Both the position numbers and the translations under genes were made by a program. This document shows, piece by piece, positions 4,342 to 16,879 of a stretch of 20,033 nt of DNA. Under the pieces are notes generated by a model. It did no database searches. It saw only the letters and a program-made list of their open reading frames with translations, and had not been told where the DNA came from. Source of the stretch: a virus; the IMG/VR virus record IMGVR_UViG_3300021963_000841, positions 1-20,033 of that record. The stretch is one strand, 5' to 3'. The stretch's first letter is position 1. Every line of letters begins with the position of its first letter.

Positions 4342-4528
4342 CAGATCGTGGGGACTGCAATGTCCCCCTGCCTATTGAGGATGGGATAACCTCGTTAAAA
4401 ACCCAGTCATGACTGGAATGGGCCTTCTGCGGAAGACAACCCATGAAAGGACAACCCCAAATACAATTAAATAATCTCTCAAAGATCTTTGGGAATCAAG
4501 TTTCACACTCTTCATTCCCCCTAAAACT
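4342..4528 (+). promoter_or_regulatory. Structured leader upstream of the major capsid gene
   Basis: This 187-base gap is the longest non-coding stretch here. It contains several inverted repeats: GGGGAC/GTCCCC (4350-4355 with 4362-4367); TGAGG/CCTCG (4376-4380 with 4390-4394, one wobble); a perfect 14-bp palindrome CCAGTCATGACTGG (4403-4416); CTTC-TGCG-GAAG, a UNCG-type tetraloop hairpin (4424-4435); a 12-bp palindrome CAAAGATCTTTG (4480-4491); and GGGAAT/ATTCCC (4491-4496 with 4514-4519). None has a following T tract, so they are not intrinsic terminators. In T7 the equivalent gap holds a strong phage promoter and an RNA processing site feeding gene 10. A similar role is inferred; I could not identify a phage promoter consensus. 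Confidence 0.5.
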
Positions 4529-5550: not shown

Positions 5551-5588
5551 GGGGGTTAGCCTATTAAAGGTTAGCCCCTCTTCTTTTA
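5551..5588 (+). terminator. Intrinsic terminator after the major capsid gene
   Basis: GGGGTTAGCCT (5552-5562) pairs with AGGTTAGCCCC (5568-5578) in an 11-bp RNA stem with two G-U wobbles and an AUUAA loop. It is followed by UCUUCUUUU. The place corresponds to the T7 terminator after gene 10, where partial termination favours capsid mRNA over tail genes. Confidence 0.85.
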
Positions 5589-10122: not shown

Positions 10123-12738
10123 ATGGCAATCTATCAATCCAAAGGTCGGAGGGTCCAGCTTGAAGGCACTGAAGTAAAGCGTGGGTTTAATCCGCAACAA
10201 GTTTACGATAACTCTCAACGTCTCGGTGAAGCTTACCGCGAGGTTGCTCAAACCTACCGTGAAGGTAATCAAGTTTATCTCAATCAACTGGAACAGGTTG
10301 GGAGAGATCTTAAGATTCAAAATGAACAAAACCTGGAGGCGCTGTCTACTTTTAGTGATACGCTTTCCAAGTTTGTCATTGACAAGCAGACCAAGTACAA
10401 CGAAGATCAAAAGAATCTTGGTATCGCAGACATCCTGAATGGTGACCTGCGTCTCAACCAAAATCTTTATCAACAGTATTCTGACAAAAAGAAAGTTCTG
10501 GAAACAGCTAACGATGCCCAGATGCAAGTTGTTAGTGAGTTTCGCCAGGTAGACCCTGCTTTTGCAGAAAGTGTTTACCAGCAGTCTCCTGCGGTTAAAG
10601 GTTGGCGGGCTTATGGTCAAGCTATTGGCAAGACGCAATCGGCTGTCTCTCAGGCTGAATCCTTTTTGGATAACTTCCTGAAAAGTGATGAGCCGATTGA
10701 GGTTCCTGTTAATGGAAAGATCGAACGGTTTACTCCTCGACAAACCCGCACACCAGAACAGCTTAATGCTGCTTGGAACGTTGGTATGCAGAAGTTCATT
10801 GAAGCTTCTGGTCTGAACCAAATCAATCCTGTTATCCTTGCTGAACACGCTTCCCCCATTATGATGCGTGTTCGTGCCGAACTTCTCGGCAATCGGATGC
10901 GGGAAATCATCAAGACTCGTGAAGCCAACGAACGGGAAGATCTTCGGACTTCTCTTTTCACGGCTGCCAGTCTTATGTCCAAAGATCCTGCTGTAGCTCA
11001 GAACAACATCAGCGAACTTAATAAGCGTCTGATTGAACTGAACGGCATGGATCGTAAGGCAGGGAACGATGAGACCCATGACATGATGAAAAATGTCATT
11101 CGTACTCTTACCTCCAAAGATCCTCGTGGTGCTGATGCACTGTTTACTGCCTACAAAGGTACACTGATCAATCCAGAAAACCCGACGCTGGGCACCTGGG
11201 GTGATCGGTATGAGATGACCGACATCAGTGAGTTCATTTCACAGACAGGCAAGGCGCAACAAGCAGAGCTAGAAACTGCAGCAAAGTCTGAAGCTGATGG
11301 TATCCTGAAGGTCTTCTACGCGAAGCCAAATGCTCAGACGTACAATGAAGCCAACGCTTTGCTTGAAAAGCTTCAGTCTAAGTATCCAAAGATTGCAGCA
11401 GAGGCTCTGGCTGAATTAACCAGCAAAGGTCCCAACTGGAATCCTGGTCGGGAAGAAGACCTTCTTGCTACTGTTAAAAGTCCTGCTGAACTTCAAGCCT
11501 TACGTGCTGCTGGTTACATCTCTGATGCAGCCTATCAACGTGGTACTCAAAAGTTTGGTGAAGCTGCGGACTTCAAGAAACTTCTTCCTAGTGAATCTGA
11601 AGTCGATAATCAAGTTCGCGGTAGATTGCGTGAATTGCTTAAGGATCAAGTAGGCACCGATGAAGGCTTTGCTCAAAAGTCAGCCTTTACTGTGACTGGT
11701 ATTCGTGGTTTGGCAATGGCGACTGTCTTGCAAAAGATTAGCACCGGTCAAATTACCGATCCTCTTCAAGCGCAAAAAGTTCTTAACGATACAATTACCC
11801 AACTAATTCCAGAGTTCTTTTCTACCAAGAAAGTTGGAAATGTTACTGTTCCTGTTTTCTATGCTGCCCCCAAAAATAATCGGGTGGCTCAATCGAGCAT
11901 GGGAACTCCTAACAAGCTTTCCAATGGTCAGACTGGTCTCAATCTGATTAACGTTGCCTTGAGTCGTGTTCCCGCCATTACCTCCTCTACAAAGGATGTT
12001 CTGTTGGATGTGGATCGGTTCCAGGTAGCAGTAGATACGATGAGGAACGGTGGACAACCTCCGTCTGATGTGGCCTTCCTGGCTAAGACAGCTGGTGTGT
12101 CCGTGCCTGAATTGCTGCGGCAACAGGCTAGCCCCGACAAGTTGAACATTCCTTTTGATGTCAACGAACTTGGTCAAGGAGCCGCTACCTATCAACAGAA
12201 TCGTCTTCTTAGTCCTCGCATTGCAGAAGCCCTTGCAAATCCCAGGATTGTTGGGACGCAACGTAGGCAACTGACTGCCGAGTTAAATCGCCTTCGTAAC
12301 CGTCAAGCAACACCGACTATCACTGGTCCGGTTGATGTGCCCAGGTTTAGACAAGCCATCTTTGGAAAGGAATCTGGTGGGCGTTATGATGCCGTTAATC
12401 CTGATTCTGGAGCCCTTGGTATTGGCCAAGTCATGCCTGAAAACGTAGGCCCTTGGACCCTTCGGTACTATGGTCGTAGACTGACTCCTCAAGAATACTT
12501 AAAAGATACTCAAGCACAGGACGCAGTGGTCAATGGTCACTTATCCTATTTGATCCAACAACAACTGCTGGCTGGCTATGCCCCTGAACTTGCAATTCGC
12601 AGGGCTGCTTCTATTTGGTATTCTGGTCGAGCAAACCTTTATAATGATTCAAAGAAACAGTTCTACAATGGTCGGGAATACCCCTCCATCCGTGACTATA
12701 CTTTGGACATTCTTGATCGTTACAGCAAAGCGCAATAA
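10123..12738 (+). CDS. Internal virion protein (T7 gp15-like) with C-terminal lytic transglycosylase domain
   Basis: This 871-residue protein holds the gp15 position (T7 gp15, 747 aa) and is mostly helical, as expected for a core protein ejected into the periplasm. Residues from about 740 form a soluble lytic transglycosylase/lysozyme-like domain: FGKESGG with probable catalytic E750, then GALGIGQVMP (763-772) and a later AIRRAASIWYSG-type helix containing the substrate groove Tyr. Such domains cut the glycan strand of peptidoglycan to let the DNA tunnel through. In T7 this domain is at the N-terminus of gp16 instead; phiKMV gp36 has a C-terminal muralytic domain in an internal virion protein. 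A strong GGAGG (10105-10109) lies 13 bases before the ATG. The stop codon lies within the first arm of a terminator. Confidence 0.87.
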   Translation: MAIYQSKGRRVQLEGTEVKRGFNPQQVYDNSQRLGEAYREVAQTYREGNQVYLNQLEQVGRDLKIQNEQNLEALSTFSDTLSKFVIDKQTKYNEDQKNLGIADILNGDLRLNQNLYQQYSDKKKVLETANDAQMQVVSEFRQVDPAFAESVYQQSPAVKGWRAYGQAIGKTQSAVSQAESFLDNFLKSDEPIEVPVNGKIERFTPRQTRTPEQLNAAWNVGMQKFIEASGLNQINPVILAEHASPIMMRVRAELLGNRMREIIKTREANEREDLRTSLFTAASLMSKDPAVAQNNISELNKRLIELNGMDRKAGNDETHDMMKNVIRTLTSKDPRGADALFTAYKGTLINPENPTLGTWGDRYEMTDISEFISQTGKAQQAELETAAKSEADGILKVFYAKPNAQTYNEANALLEKLQSKYPKIAAEALAELTSKGPNWNPGREEDLLATVKSPAELQALRAAGYISDAAYQRGTQKFGEAADFKKLLPSESEVDNQVRGRLRELLKDQVGTDEGFAQKSAFTVTGIRGLAMATVLQKISTGQITDPLQAQKVLNDTITQLIPEFFSTKKVGNVTVPVFYAAPKNNRVAQSSMGTPNKLSNGQTGLNLINVALSRVPAITSSTKDVLLDVDRFQVAVDTMRNGGQPPSDVAFLAKTAGVSVPELLRQQASPDKLNIPFDVNELGQGAATYQQNRLLSPRIAEALANPRIVGTQRRQLTAELNRLRNRQATPTITGPVDVPRFRQAIFGKESGGRYDAVNPDSGALGIGQVMPENVGPWTLRYYGRRLTPQEYLKDTQAQDAVVNGHLSYLIQQQLLAGYAPELAIRRAASIWYSGRANLYNDSKKQFYNGREYPSIRDYTLDILDRYSKAQ

Positions 12739-12781
12739 GACCCTTTCTCTGCGGAGATGGGGTCTTCCCCCTTTTTTCTTT
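12737..12781 (+). terminator. Intrinsic terminator between gp15- and gp16-like genes
   Basis: AAGACCC (12737-12743) pairs with GGGTCTT (12760-12766), and the interior folds into TCTC-TGCG-GAGA (12746-12757) with a UNCG tetraloop, giving a long nearly continuous hairpin. It is followed by CCCCCTTTTTTCTTTT. The left arm begins within the TAA of the gp15-like gene. Confidence 0.8.
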
Positions 12782-12793
12782 TCTCTGCGGAGA
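12744..12793 (+). repeat. Paired 14-base direct repeat, each copy a UNCG hairpin
   Basis: TTTCTCTGCGGAGA occurs at 12744-12757 and again at 12780-12793. Each copy can fold as TCTC-TGCG-GAGA. The first is the tip of the terminator hairpin, the second lies just before the gp16-like start. Confidence 0.85.
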
Positions 12794-12802
12794 CCTTACT
12801 AA
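12780..12802 (+). promoter_or_regulatory. Ribosome binding site enclosed in a small hairpin
   Basis: The Shine-Dalgarno GGAGA (12789-12793) is nine bases before the ATG at 12803. The same bases form the right arm of the hairpin TCTC-TGCG-GAGA (12782-12793), so ribosome access to the gp16-like message would compete with folding. The stem is only four base pairs, but a cUNCGg loop is unusually stable. Confidence 0.5.
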
Positions 12803-15800
12803 ATGGCTGATATTGAAGCTTTCCGTCCAGTTGACCTTGAGAAGCTGGAAGCTCTTCAAAACCAAGCATTAAGCAACAAGAACAAACAAAAACAGCTGGA
12901 AGCTCAGGCAAAACAACGCCAACAGGCAGCTGATGTTCAACCCCAACAAGCTCCTCCTCAACCCACCCCTCCTGTTCAGCAACCCCAACAAATCTTCCAA
13001 AGCCTGATGCCTCAGATGCAGCCCGGTCAGTTGGATGCTGTTGGTAAGTATATTGAACAAAACGTCAACATCCCTCTTCTTGACTTCATTGATAACATTT
13101 CTGGAGACAAGAAAAGCGCAGAAACCATTGCCAAGGAACGACAGCAGCTGCGGACAAAGCGCGGTCAAGAACTGAAAGCAACCGAAAAGGCTGTTGAACA
13201 GCAGTTCTACTCTAACCAAGCGTCTGCTGCTGGTGCTGAAGTTATCCGTGCTGGTGTTGGCGCCATTGCTAAACCTATTGAGGGTGTGGCCGATGTTGGT
13301 TACCAATGGTATCTAAACAATACTGTTAACAAAGGTAAAAAGCCTTCAGACGAAGGGTATGTTCGCGCATATACCGAACTGACAAAAGCACCTAAAACAG
13401 AAGTAGGTCTTGCTGGTGAGAAGCTTCTTAGCTTTATTCTTCTGGCTCGTGCCCTGCGTAATGTGCCTGGAGCCAAGCTTGGGGCCAAACCTATTCCTGC
13501 TGATGTAAAGGGCATTGCTCGTGTTGGAGCCAAAGCCAGCCGTCTTGTTCAAGAAGGCCTGGTCCCTGGTATGGTTGCTGACTTCTTCCTTACGGATGCC
13601 AAAGATGGCAACATGTCTGAGGTGGTCAAAGGTCTTGTACCCGCAGCTTACCGTGATTCCCTTGTGTTTGGACTATCCACCGATAAGTATGGAGATCCAT
13701 TCCTAAATCGCGTTAAGAGCCTTGGAGAAGGCGCTGTAATGAACCCCATCTTCAATGGTGGTATAGATGCACTCGTTAAGGGTTACAGGGCCGCTAGAGC
13801 CGCTCTGAAAGGTGGTGCTGATCCTGACACAGCTATTAAGACTGGTCTGGATACCATGGCCGATGCGTCTGATGAAAACATCAAAGAAGCAGCCAGAAAC
13901 TCCAAAGCTGAAACCGACAATACCGTTAAGGTAAGGGCTCAGGAATTGGAGGAACTGGATGAGCAAGAGTTTGAACTTGGGCGTAAGCTTAATCAAGCCA
14001 CAGATCCAGAAGAGATTCAACAGCTTGAACTTGAGCTTAATGATCTTAATTACAAGCGGGATGACATCCTGACCGACATCGACAACGAGTTAGATCCTGC
14101 TACTCAAAAGCTACCATTTGAGAACACCCGTACTATCAATGCGGATGACATCAATAACGTAGCTCGTGACCAGATCAACCTTGAAGAAGGATTCCCTGGT
14201 ATTGGTCGAGTAAGTATTCATGGTGCGTCTGGTTCTGTTATGACGGAATCTGCCATCAAGAGTGCTGGCATTAAGGATGGTGCTCGTAAGATGCTCAACC
14301 GCTATGAGAAGGACGTGGATGTTCTGCGTATTTCCAAGGAAAGCGGCATGAGCGTTGGTAAGGTTCTTGACAATGCGGCTCGTATCTATCAAGATTTCCT
14401 TGATGGTATGCGTCCATATGATGAGATCTTTACTGGTGATGAAGGGGAACTTGTCAAGCGTTTGCTTGGTCAGTCTGGTGAACTTGTTGTTGGTACCAAG
14501 CGGGGAACCCTAGGTGCCACCAACGAAACTCTGATTGCCGCCAAAGCTATCATTGCTGACTGGTCTAATGATCTTTATAAGCTAGCCCAGCTGGCAGAGG
14601 ATGCCGATACCAGCCAAGTAGCAGGCTTTAACTATTACGAACGATTGATTGATCGTTACGTTGGTTTGCTTGAGTTCTATAAAACTGGCACTCAATTCTT
14701 TGGTGGATCTCTCAATAGCTTGAAGCTTAGCATCACTCCTAACATGGATGCACGCGAAACTGCTCAGCTGATGTCCAGCTTTGAAAGCGAAGAAATTCCT
14801 GTTACCCTGGCTCGCCTTCGTAAGTTCGCTAAGGATGCCAAAGATGCCTATCGTCGTGGCGATGCTGAGGGCCTTGAAAAGCTTCGTACCCTGACTAGGG
14901 CTATGGTTTTGTCTGGTGGTGATCCGGCTAAAGCCATTAGCTTTGGCCAGACTGCCCGTGACATTTGGGGTTCGGTTCAAACCCGTAACTTCTACAACTC
15001 CATCCTGTCTGGTGCCAAGACTATCTTCCGTAATGGTGGTACCGTCTATCGTCTTGTTGAAGGCCCTACTAGCATTGCTATGCGTGGGTTCTTCTCCGGT
15101 GATGATGCTACGTTGCGGGCGGGATTAGCTGGTTATAAGGCAATCCTTGGTAGTGCCTCTGAAGCCTTTAAAGTGGCTAGCAGGACTATTCGTACTGGTA
15201 TTCCGATTCAGGCAACCCCTAACCGGATTATGCAACAGACGGAAACGCTTGCCAAGTTGCAAACCCTTGAAACTGTTGCTGAAACTCCTACCCAGCAACG
15301 GATGGTTGGTTACCTTAAATTCCATTACCGCTTTGCAGAAGCTCTGGCTATTCCTGAGCGACTCATGATGGGTATGGATGATTACTTTAAAACCATCCTT
15401 GCTCGCCAACGGATTGATGAGCTGGCTACCTATCAGGCTTACAAGGAAGATCCTACCAACTGGAAGCGTAATCTTACCACGTATCTTGATCAATACAAGA
15501 ACTCTATCGACCCTAACACTGGGGTAATTAAGAGTAAAGCCATTGCTGAGTATGCAGACATTGGCACCTTCCAAAGTGATCCATGGGAGAATGCTAGCAA
15601 GCTTGCTGGATTCATTGATTCCATACCCCTTGGTAAAGCTCTGATTCCGTTTATTCGTACTCCTGCTAACATCATTAGTTATCAGTTTGAACACCTGCCT
15701 TTGACTGCTCGGTTTTCTAGGAACTACCAGTCTGCCATGAAGTCTGGTGATCCACTTCTGATTGCAGAATATGAAGGTCGCCAAGCTATCGGAGTGATGG

Positions 15801-16879
15801 CCGTGACTGCTGCTGGTATTATGGCTTCATCTGGTCTGATTACTGGCAACATGCCTAGTCACCTTACCGAACCTGAAGAGCATAAACGGTGGAAAGAACT
15901 TAACATCAAGCCACGTTCCCTAAAGTTTGGAGATAAGTACATCTCCTACAATATGGTCGAGCCCCTCTCCAATATCATTGCTGCGGTTTCTGACACCATT
16001 CGTGTGTGGCAGACCTATGGCATGAAGGAGGAGTTTGTGGATCGTATGAGCACACAGCTTATCTTTAGTATTGGTGCTAGCCTTACTGAAAAGAGCTACT
16101 TCTCTGGTATTGCCGCAATGGCAGAACTCACCAATGGTGAGAATTGGACAAGCGAAAATGCCATCCGTGGTATGCTTGGATTCATGAATAACCAGGCCAT
16201 TGGTGCAGGTCTTCGTCGTGCTGTATCCAATACCTTTGATGAGCACATGCGTGAATACTCTGATGAGTTTGATCGCAGCCTTCAAACCTCTATTCCTGGA
16301 TACCGCAACTTCCGCCCTTCGATGATCAGTGTCTTTACTGGTCAACCAATGAAGAACCCCAATGGAGGTTTGTGGAATGCCAACGTACCCTTTGAAGTAA
16401 GTGTTGAGAATAAGGATCCAGTTGTTAACATGCTCCAATCCATCGGGTACAAGTGGAAGGATGACCTAGACCGTCACCGCACTGGTATGCCTCTGACTGC
16501 TGAACAAAAGAACTTTATCCGTAAAACAATGTTCGAATACGGATTACGTGATCAGCTGGCAGTGGAGATGTCAAAGCCTTACTTCCAAGAAGACTTTGAT
16601 AACTGGAAAAATCGCAGACTTGGCACTGACAAGAAGTACTTTGACTCCAAACAACCAAAGATCTACGAGAATGTTCAGGACATCTGGAACAAGGCACGCG
16701 ACTATGCTTTCGTGAAGTTAGCTGCCCAAGATGCTGAATTTGCTGGTACTCTGGAACGGTTGAACAAGAAAAAGTATCAATTCGAGAACGGTAACTACGA
16801 ACTCGATAAACCGCAGAAGTTCTACTCAACCATGACAGACCAAGAGGCTAAGCGCCTTGAGGCACTTACTAATTATTAG
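12803..16879 (+). CDS. Internal virion protein D (T7 gp16-like core/ejection protein)
   Basis: The 1358-residue protein matches T7 gp16 (1318 aa) in size and position. It is the largest core protein, ejected to span the periplasm and inner membrane and to help pull in the leading DNA. Here the first 30-70 residues are Gln/Pro-rich and coiled (NKNKQKQLEAQAKQRQQ), and there is no transglycosylase motif at the N-terminus, unlike T7. The middle is highly helical with a Glu-rich coiled coil (about 385-430). One hydrophobic segment, AIGVMAVTAAGIMASSGLITG (about 995-1015), could insert into a membrane. The C-terminal third (for example VDRMSTQLIFSIGASLTEKS, about 1081-1100) looks like cyanopodovirus gp16 proteins. 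It follows the terminator above, so its mRNA must come from read-through or a promoter I could not identify. Confidence 0.87.
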   Translation: MADIEAFRPVDLEKLEALQNQALSNKNKQKQLEAQAKQRQQAADVQPQQAPPQPTPPVQQPQQIFQSLMPQMQPGQLDAVGKYIEQNVNIPLLDFIDNISGDKKSAETIAKERQQLRTKRGQELKATEKAVEQQFYSNQASAAGAEVIRAGVGAIAKPIEGVADVGYQWYLNNTVNKGKKPSDEGYVRAYTELTKAPKTEVGLAGEKLLSFILLARALRNVPGAKLGAKPIPADVKGIARVGAKASRLVQEGLVPGMVADFFLTDAKDGNMSEVVKGLVPAAYRDSLVFGLSTDKYGDPFLNRVKSLGEGAVMNPIFNGGIDALVKGYRAARAALKGGADPDTAIKTGLDTMADASDENIKEAARNSKAETDNTVKVRAQELEELDEQEFELGRKLNQATDPEEIQQLELELNDLNYKRDDILTDIDNELDPATQKLPFENTRTINADDINNVARDQINLEEGFPGIGRVSIHGASGSVMTESAIKSAGIKDGARKMLNRYEKDVDVLRISKESGMSVGKVLDNAARIYQDFLDGMRPYDEIFTGDEGELVKRLLGQSGELVVGTKRGTLGATNETLIAAKAIIADWSNDLYKLAQLAEDADTSQVAGFNYYERLIDRYVGLLEFYKTGTQFFGGSLNSLKLSITPNMDARETAQLMSSFESEEIPVTLARLRKFAKDAKDAYRRGDAEGLEKLRTLTRAMVLSGGDPAKAISFGQTARDIWGSVQTRNFYNSILSGAKTIFRNGGTVYRLVEGPTSIAMRGFFSGDDATLRAGLAGYKAILGSASEAFKVASRTIRTGIPIQATPNRIMQQTETLAKLQTLETVAETPTQQRMVGYLKFHYRFAEALAIPERLMMGMDDYFKTILARQRIDELATYQAYKEDPTNWKRNLTTYLDQYKNSIDPNTGVIKSKAIAEYADIGTFQSDPWENASKLAGFIDSIPLGKALIPFIRTPANIISYQFEHLPLTARFSRNYQSAMKSGDPLLIAEYEGRQAIGVMAVTAAGIMASSGLITGNMPSHLTEPEEHKRWKELNIKPRSLKFGDKYISYNMVEPLSNIIAAVSDTIRVWQTYGMKEEFVDRMSTQLIFSIGASLTEKSYFSGIAAMAELTNGENWTSENAIRGMLGFMNNQAIGAGLRRAVSNTFDEHMREYSDEFDRSLQTSIPGYRNFRPSMISVFTGQPMKNPNGGLWNANVPFEVSVENKDPVVNMLQSIGYKWKDDLDRHRTGMPLTAEQKNFIRKTMFEYGLRDQLAVEMSKPYFQEDFDNWKNRRLGTDKKYFDSKQPKIYENVQDIWNKARDYAFVKLAAQDAEFAGTLERLNKKKYQFENGNYELDKPQKFYSTMTDQEAKRLEALTNY

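Follow-up and report, generated by a model that had tools for sequence, protein, structure and literature searches.

Two exact copies of the 14-base repeat TTTCTCTGCGGAGA, lying 36 nt apart at positions 12744–12757 and 12780–12793 between the genes for the internal virion proteins gp15 and gp16, are best read as the tips of two hairpins, HP1 and HP2, of one conserved cis-acting element in the late mRNA. The structure of this two-hairpin element is well supported, strongly in HP1 and moderately in HP2. From it we infer an intercistronic RNA with two roles, insulation of gp16 and gating of its translation, a function to which we assign a probability of roughly 0.45. The DNA analysed is the 20,033-base virus record IMGVR_UViG_3300021963_000841 (this whole stretch is referred to as the window), whose late genes, comprising portal, scaffold, capsid, tail and internal virion proteins, are T7-like. 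Judged by gp16, its named relatives are mostly Synechococcus and Prochlorococcus phages, and by the capsid the nearest relatives among the matches listed are Synechococcus phages.

Table 1. Features of the gp15–gp16 junction and of the capsid region in the window.
Feature	Positions	Strand	Description
Palindrome upstream of capsid gene	4403–4416		CCAGTCATGACTGG
Capsid-leader motif	4418–4444		27 nt, in the leader of the major capsid gene
Hairpin after capsid gene	5551–5579		long; loop neither UACG nor UUCG
gp15-like internal virion protein	10123–12738	+	from gene order and match to relatives
Swapped lytic-domain segment of gp15	12295–12733	+	no DNA match to locus L001
HP1	12737–12766	+	stem AAGACCCUUUCUC/GAGAUGGGGUCUU, 12 pairs, one U-U mismatch; loop UGCG 12750–12753; holds copy 1
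Linker between hairpins	12767–12781	+	CCCCCUUUUUUCUUU in the window; G-poor family-wide
HP2	12782–12793	+	UCUC(UGCG)GAGA; loop 12786–12789; SD-like GGAG 12789–12792; within copy 2
Spacer to gp16 start codon	12794–12802	+	G-poor family-wide
gp16-like internal virion protein	12803–16879	+	PHROG 6651

The first-pass annotation had placed the repeat at the tip of a stem-loop behind gp15 and again over the gp16 Shine–Dalgarno (SD) sequence, and both placements are borne out: copy 1 forms the tip of HP1, which begins inside the gp15 stop codon, and the GGAG contained in copy 2 lies 10 nt ahead of the gp16 ATG. No third exact copy is present elsewhere in the record. Sixty dinucleotide shuffles of the window yielded no exact 14-mer recurring within 60 nt, whereas the real window has four such pairs, the TTTCTCTGCGGAGA pair included (overlapping 14-mers being counted separately). 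A near-copy with two mismatches at 473–486 was rejected as a further element, as it is the coding end, C-I-P-C-G-E, of an upstream open reading frame.

HP1 sits after the gp15 stop codon in 46 junctions, 40 of them distinct. These comprise 17 from the gp16 scans (window included; 16 contigs in the first scan, one more in the second), 24 from the capsid-scan set, L273 and L276 taken from a set of 20 loci, and three cultured isolates. L015/L155, which end before the junction, are left out of the first 17. The capsid-protein scan, in which the best 80 of 245 loci were used, extended the sample to phages whose gp16 is only ~19–50% identical, and their junctions have the same layout as that of the window; seven of its loci were scored as duplicates, among them L216, which was scored on a short mis-called segment, and L252 is the same contig as L001. 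Among the 17 closest junctions, all of which carry an upstream TGCG with flanking arms in stems that differ, TCTCTGCGGAGA ahead of gp16 is invariant; its reading as a sequence-specific signal was rejected, since the stem varies in the wider relatives.

The cultured marine and estuarine isolates Syn5, S-CBP42 and SS120-1 contain HP1, and HP2 was not found in them by a loop-limited search. Seventeen other named records, left out of the 46, have no such element by eye, and their gp15 and gp16 genes overlap or are separated by a gap of at most 25 nt (S-TIP28, P60, P-SSP7, S-CBP3, NATL1A-7, S-CBP4, S-B28, S-SBP1, S-RIP2, P-SSP10, 9515-10a, CRP-114, ProddE, S45C4, S-CBP2, S-SRP01 and S-CBP1, the last three with gp15 and gp16 assigned from gene order); these phages therefore manage without it. 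We note that P-SSP7, with AUUAC(UACG)GUAAU, and P60 show, by eye, UACG-tipped hairpin-like sequences near the junction. A search of viral contigs with the pattern TGCGG..CTCTGCGGAGA was set aside: among at least 119 loci, five gp16 queries matched three (L037, L058 and L079), all contigs already in hand, and the other loci look like chance. Rfam gave no family at gathering score over the whole window, only two sub-threshold eukaryotic families at the junction with E up to 5, and only two tRNAs, both away from the junction, on ten relative loci. In the listed titles and abstract openings of open-licence PMC literature, no account of a gp15–gp16 hairpin element was found.

The pairing of HP1 is maintained while its sequence is rebuilt between phages. 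In 31 distinct sequences, 10 of 10 stem pairs show two-sided changes (141 cells), pairing holds in 87.7% of cells versus 46.0% after shuffling, and each arm changes in step with its own other arm, the covariation being 1.069 versus 0.260 shuffled; none of 500 shuffles reached as high a value, and the best value with a slid partner was 0.570. One analysis was centred on TGCG by design, so the fair counts for the loop come from two other searches. A loop-blind search, covering simple hairpins of at most 38 nt, gave a TGCG loop on the lowest-energy hairpin in 37 of the 40 distinct junctions (it does not rank first in L001, L239 and L249). A search without gaps that tolerated a single mismatch gave TGCG as the loop of the longest tetraloop hairpin in 34 out of 44 junctions. 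A TGCG is flanked by at least 7 of 10 pairs in 37/40 junctions versus 21/4000 shuffled sequences. In 1.03 Mb, 24 distinct long TGCG hairpins were found, 20 of which lie at the gp15–gp16 junction (17 flagged by script and three placed by their coordinates).

The loop is closed by five kinds of base pair in the 31 distinct sequences (CG 9, GC 8, UG 5, UA 5 and AU 4), so it is not kept solely for the stability rule of C(UNCG)G. The 310 cells of the stem contain 216 Watson–Crick pairs, 56 G-U, 9 A-C and 29 others. This excess of G-U over A-C points to the plus-strand mRNA as the acting form; HP1 most likely does not work as the opposite strand or as a DNA cruciform, neither of which favours G-U over A-C. 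Folded in context by RNAfold, HP1 has a probability below 0.25 in 11 of 37 junctions and of 0.06 in the window, partly because of cross-pairing with HP2 and partly because of other competing folds.

HP2, with its purine-rich 3′ arm, is present in 37 of the 40 distinct junctions, so that two related hairpins are kept in the relatives. With the search restricted to T[GA][CAT]G, its loops are UGCG (25), UGAG (9), UAAG (2) and UGUG (1); once any tetraloop was admitted, a loop other than that of HP2 came first in 15 of 43 junctions. Pyrimidines fill 142 of 148 positions in the 5′ arm and purines 143 of 148 in the 3′ arm; this asymmetry is expected of an SD role and is lacking in HP1, whose 5′ arm has 232 pyrimidines and 168 purines. 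For the inner four pairs, 97.7% of cells are paired (79.7% shuffled), 20 cells are changed on both sides (5.7 shuffled) and covariation is 0.720 (0.360 shuffled); three of the four pairs are changed on both sides, which 107 of 500 shuffles also reach, and the pair types number five, fewer than the 6.3 in shuffles. SD-like purines thus lie in a conserved hairpin arm, as sequestering of the SD would have it, and the computed probability of the hairpin in context is low: at most 0.49 in the 37 junctions, near 0 in many and 0.00 in the window, which counts against HP2 as a stable gate. The end of the arm lies 6–23 nt from the gp16 start codon, in many members a longer spacing than is typical of an SD. 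The linkers and spacers on either side of HP2 contain 5.2% and 2.2% G, respectively, versus 24.2% in gp15 coding sequence and 11.3% ahead of other starts, and are probably unfolded, as judged from this composition. Pairing between the loops of HP1 and HP2 was considered and discarded, as HP2 loops shift to UGAG, UAAG or UGUG while HP1 stays UGCG.

The first-pass annotation proposed that the copies trade partners, opening and closing the gp16 ribosome site. The exchange could physically take place: each copy is close to self-complementary, copy 1 and copy 2 can form 12 pairs (two G-U), and in the window the cross-paired structure, together with a small inner GGGG/CCCC hairpin, reaches −23.9 kcal/mol versus −18.8 kcal/mol for two separate hairpins. 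Cross-pairing dominates the window fold, the minimum free energy structure of a longer window stretch being likewise cross-paired, and it is more probable than native pairing in the window, L001 and L014 and comparable in L152 (0.39/0.19). However, the alternative pairing that an RNA switch would retain is not conserved. Where both hairpins are present (37 distinct junctions), the native inner four pairs are kept in 136/148 (HP1) and 145/148 (HP2) cells, versus 96/148 and 81/148 for the crosswise pairs, and the cross-pairing probability, at least 0.39 in four junctions, is at most 0.21 in the other 33. Any two near-palindromes can cross-pair trivially; this is not what selection kept, and HP1 would be expected to fold first during transcription; we consider such a switch very improbable. 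The same stem-loop had also been called the gp15 terminator, and a partial terminator (attenuator) between gp15 and gp16 is an unlikely reading as well, although the stem-loop is GC-rich and is followed by a U-rich stretch (at least 6 T in 8, within 16 nt past the inner 10 pairs) in nine of the 40 distinct junctions (window, L002, L004, L189, L218, L230, L249, L251 and S-CBP42). The other 31 have no such stretch; in the window, CCCCC intervenes between the stem and the T-run, so that no U-tract directly follows the GC-rich stem as in an intrinsic terminator, and a simple terminator scan of the window did not list the site. Syn5 RNA polymerase made no obvious stop at a T7 stem-loop terminator in vitro (PMC3950665).

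Two further explanations take the element as a site acted upon in RNA or in DNA. In mRNA processing or stability, HP1 would guard the gp15 3′ end, a host ribonuclease would cut the G-poor linker and HP2 would cap the gp16 5′ end. This is possible, if doubtful: the two hairpins flank an A/U/C-rich linker of similar length (loop-to-loop distance 35–46 nt) and promoters are few in Syn5 (PMC3950665), but the invariant UGCG loop and the purine-rich HP2 3′ arm are left unexplained, and HP2 is absent in three isolates. A recombination linker, retained at the DNA level as a crossover site for swaps of the gp15 lytic domain, has in its favour that HP1 usually adjoins the downstream edge of the swapped domain. 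The C-terminal segment of gp15 gives a weak, SLT-like lytic transglycosylase match in the window (E = 0.0044; 17 bits, below the Pfam cut-off of 21.3) and, also below cut-off, in L173, whereas L001, with a gp16 91% identical to that of the window, has an M23 domain there; M23 is also found in L165 and L016, DPBB in L011 and L012, and no assigned domain in L008. Eleven pairs were compared (the domain of some members being read from the alignment of relatives), of which six differ in lytic domain, four are similar throughout and one, L212/L213, gave no match. In five of the six, the DNA match returns 2–11 nt upstream of the HP1 foot. In the sixth, L008/L010, it returns 87 nt ahead of the gp15 stop, and both members share a displaced stretch of 80–95 nt with L012. 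Against such a linker, the stem sequence is not conserved, just its pairing and loop, and the G-U excess suggests selection on plus-strand RNA; a crossover site is thus highly unlikely. The position of the swap edge indicates that HP1 travels with gp16 when the upstream domain changes, which suits an insulator.

In the preferred reading, that of an insulating and gating RNA element, HP1, with its UGCG loop and freely rebuilt stem, would close off the gp15 message and shield the gp16 start region from whichever lytic domain and 3′ sequence lie upstream. HP2, short and with a UNCG-like tetraloop, would hold the purine-rich SD-like bases just ahead of gp16, and the G-poor, probably unfolded linker and spacer would keep the parts of the element separate. 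By restricting ribosome access, HP2 would give gp16 a separate and lower rate of synthesis on a long late mRNA, so that the paired hairpins probably tune the amount of the second DNA-injection protein, gp16. The earlier proposal that gp16 is held back relative to gp15 stands to this extent: control is plausible, with SD-like bases in HP2, but not through exchange of the copies. A single promoter in Syn5 drives transcription of over 37 kb (PMC3950665), and late-gene ratios would therefore be set after initiation. We infer insulation, gating, lower gp16 output and the lack of a nearby promoter, the last of these known for Syn5, with control lying past the transcription start and mostly not at termination. 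In T7, according to the review PMC8954989, gp15 forms an octamer before ejection, and the core shows four gp16 molecules, a further two being suggested; the need would therefore be for somewhat less gp16 than gp15.

It is also conceivable, though rather unlikely, that a dedicated RNA-binding protein, of phage or host origin, recognises HP1 by its UGCG tip and sets the ratio of the DNA-injection proteins on a late transcript that has almost no promoters within it. If true, the gp15–gp16 element and a related tetraloop motif in the capsid leader would form a small post-transcriptional regulon of T7-like cyanophages.

The capsid-leader motif (Table 1) consists of an outer stem, a one-sided internal loop (C opposite A-Y-A-M), a 4-bp inner stem and a tetraloop, and is found in 48 of 52 distinct segments, its relatives being among L174–L253, Syn5 (L284), S-CBP42 (L285) and SS120-1 (L286). 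Both stems vary between phages yet pair, as judged without a formal count. The loops are UGCG (42), UGAG (4) and UACG (2); a strict reading of UGCG as the universal recognition loop was rejected, since UGAG and UACG occur and S-CBP2 reads, by eye, as a GCAA loop. The capsid leader of S-SRP01 has the motif with UACG. Rfam gave no match to the motif above gathering score. Directly upstream lies the full palindrome CCAGTCATGACTGG, the middle four bases of which become TCGA or CTAG in many relatives with self-complementarity kept. Long hairpins also follow the capsid gene in L189, L203, L210, L213 and L230, with UACG or UUCG loops. In Prochlorococcus phage SS120-1 (7368–7419, minus strand), the gap between scaffold and capsid genes holds a Glutamine-II riboswitch match above gathering score, and tRNA matches lie upstream of the capsid gene in L210 (258–326) and L239 (33–102).

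At least one T7-like cyanophage, Syn5, is mostly transcribed from a single promoter. As a means by which such phages make unequal amounts of their virion proteins, the gp15–gp16 RNA element, with its invariant loop and rebuilt stems, offers a concrete candidate, and HP1 is present in cultured phages. The cyanophage motifs wcaG, manA and PhotoRC-II of Rfam are located ahead of metabolic or photosynthesis genes (PMC2864571). The present element resembles these in being a structured RNA of cyanophages and differs in lying between gp15 and gp16 and in having no Rfam family at gathering score in the window and scanned junctions. Phage translational operators exert control at translation starts. The target sites of T4 RegB likewise place control at GGAG-type starts (PMC3014915). 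The element would be alike in that placement, but its SD-like bases are held in a hairpin arm. In the T7 late region, transcript ends are set by stem-loops lying between the genes, namely a class I terminator and RNase III sites; the hairpins described here are likewise stem-loops between late genes, unlike the T7 terminator in that most lack a U-tract, and their stems are shorter than those of usual RNase III substrates. The C(UUCG)G intercistronic hairpins of T4 are, like HP1, stable UNCG-capped hairpins between phage genes. Whereas the T4 hairpins have a UUCG loop closed by C-G, HP1 has UGCG closed by five kinds of pair, with C-G in nine of 31 distinct sequences, and it is found at one gene junction, in most cases accompanied by HP2 at the start site.
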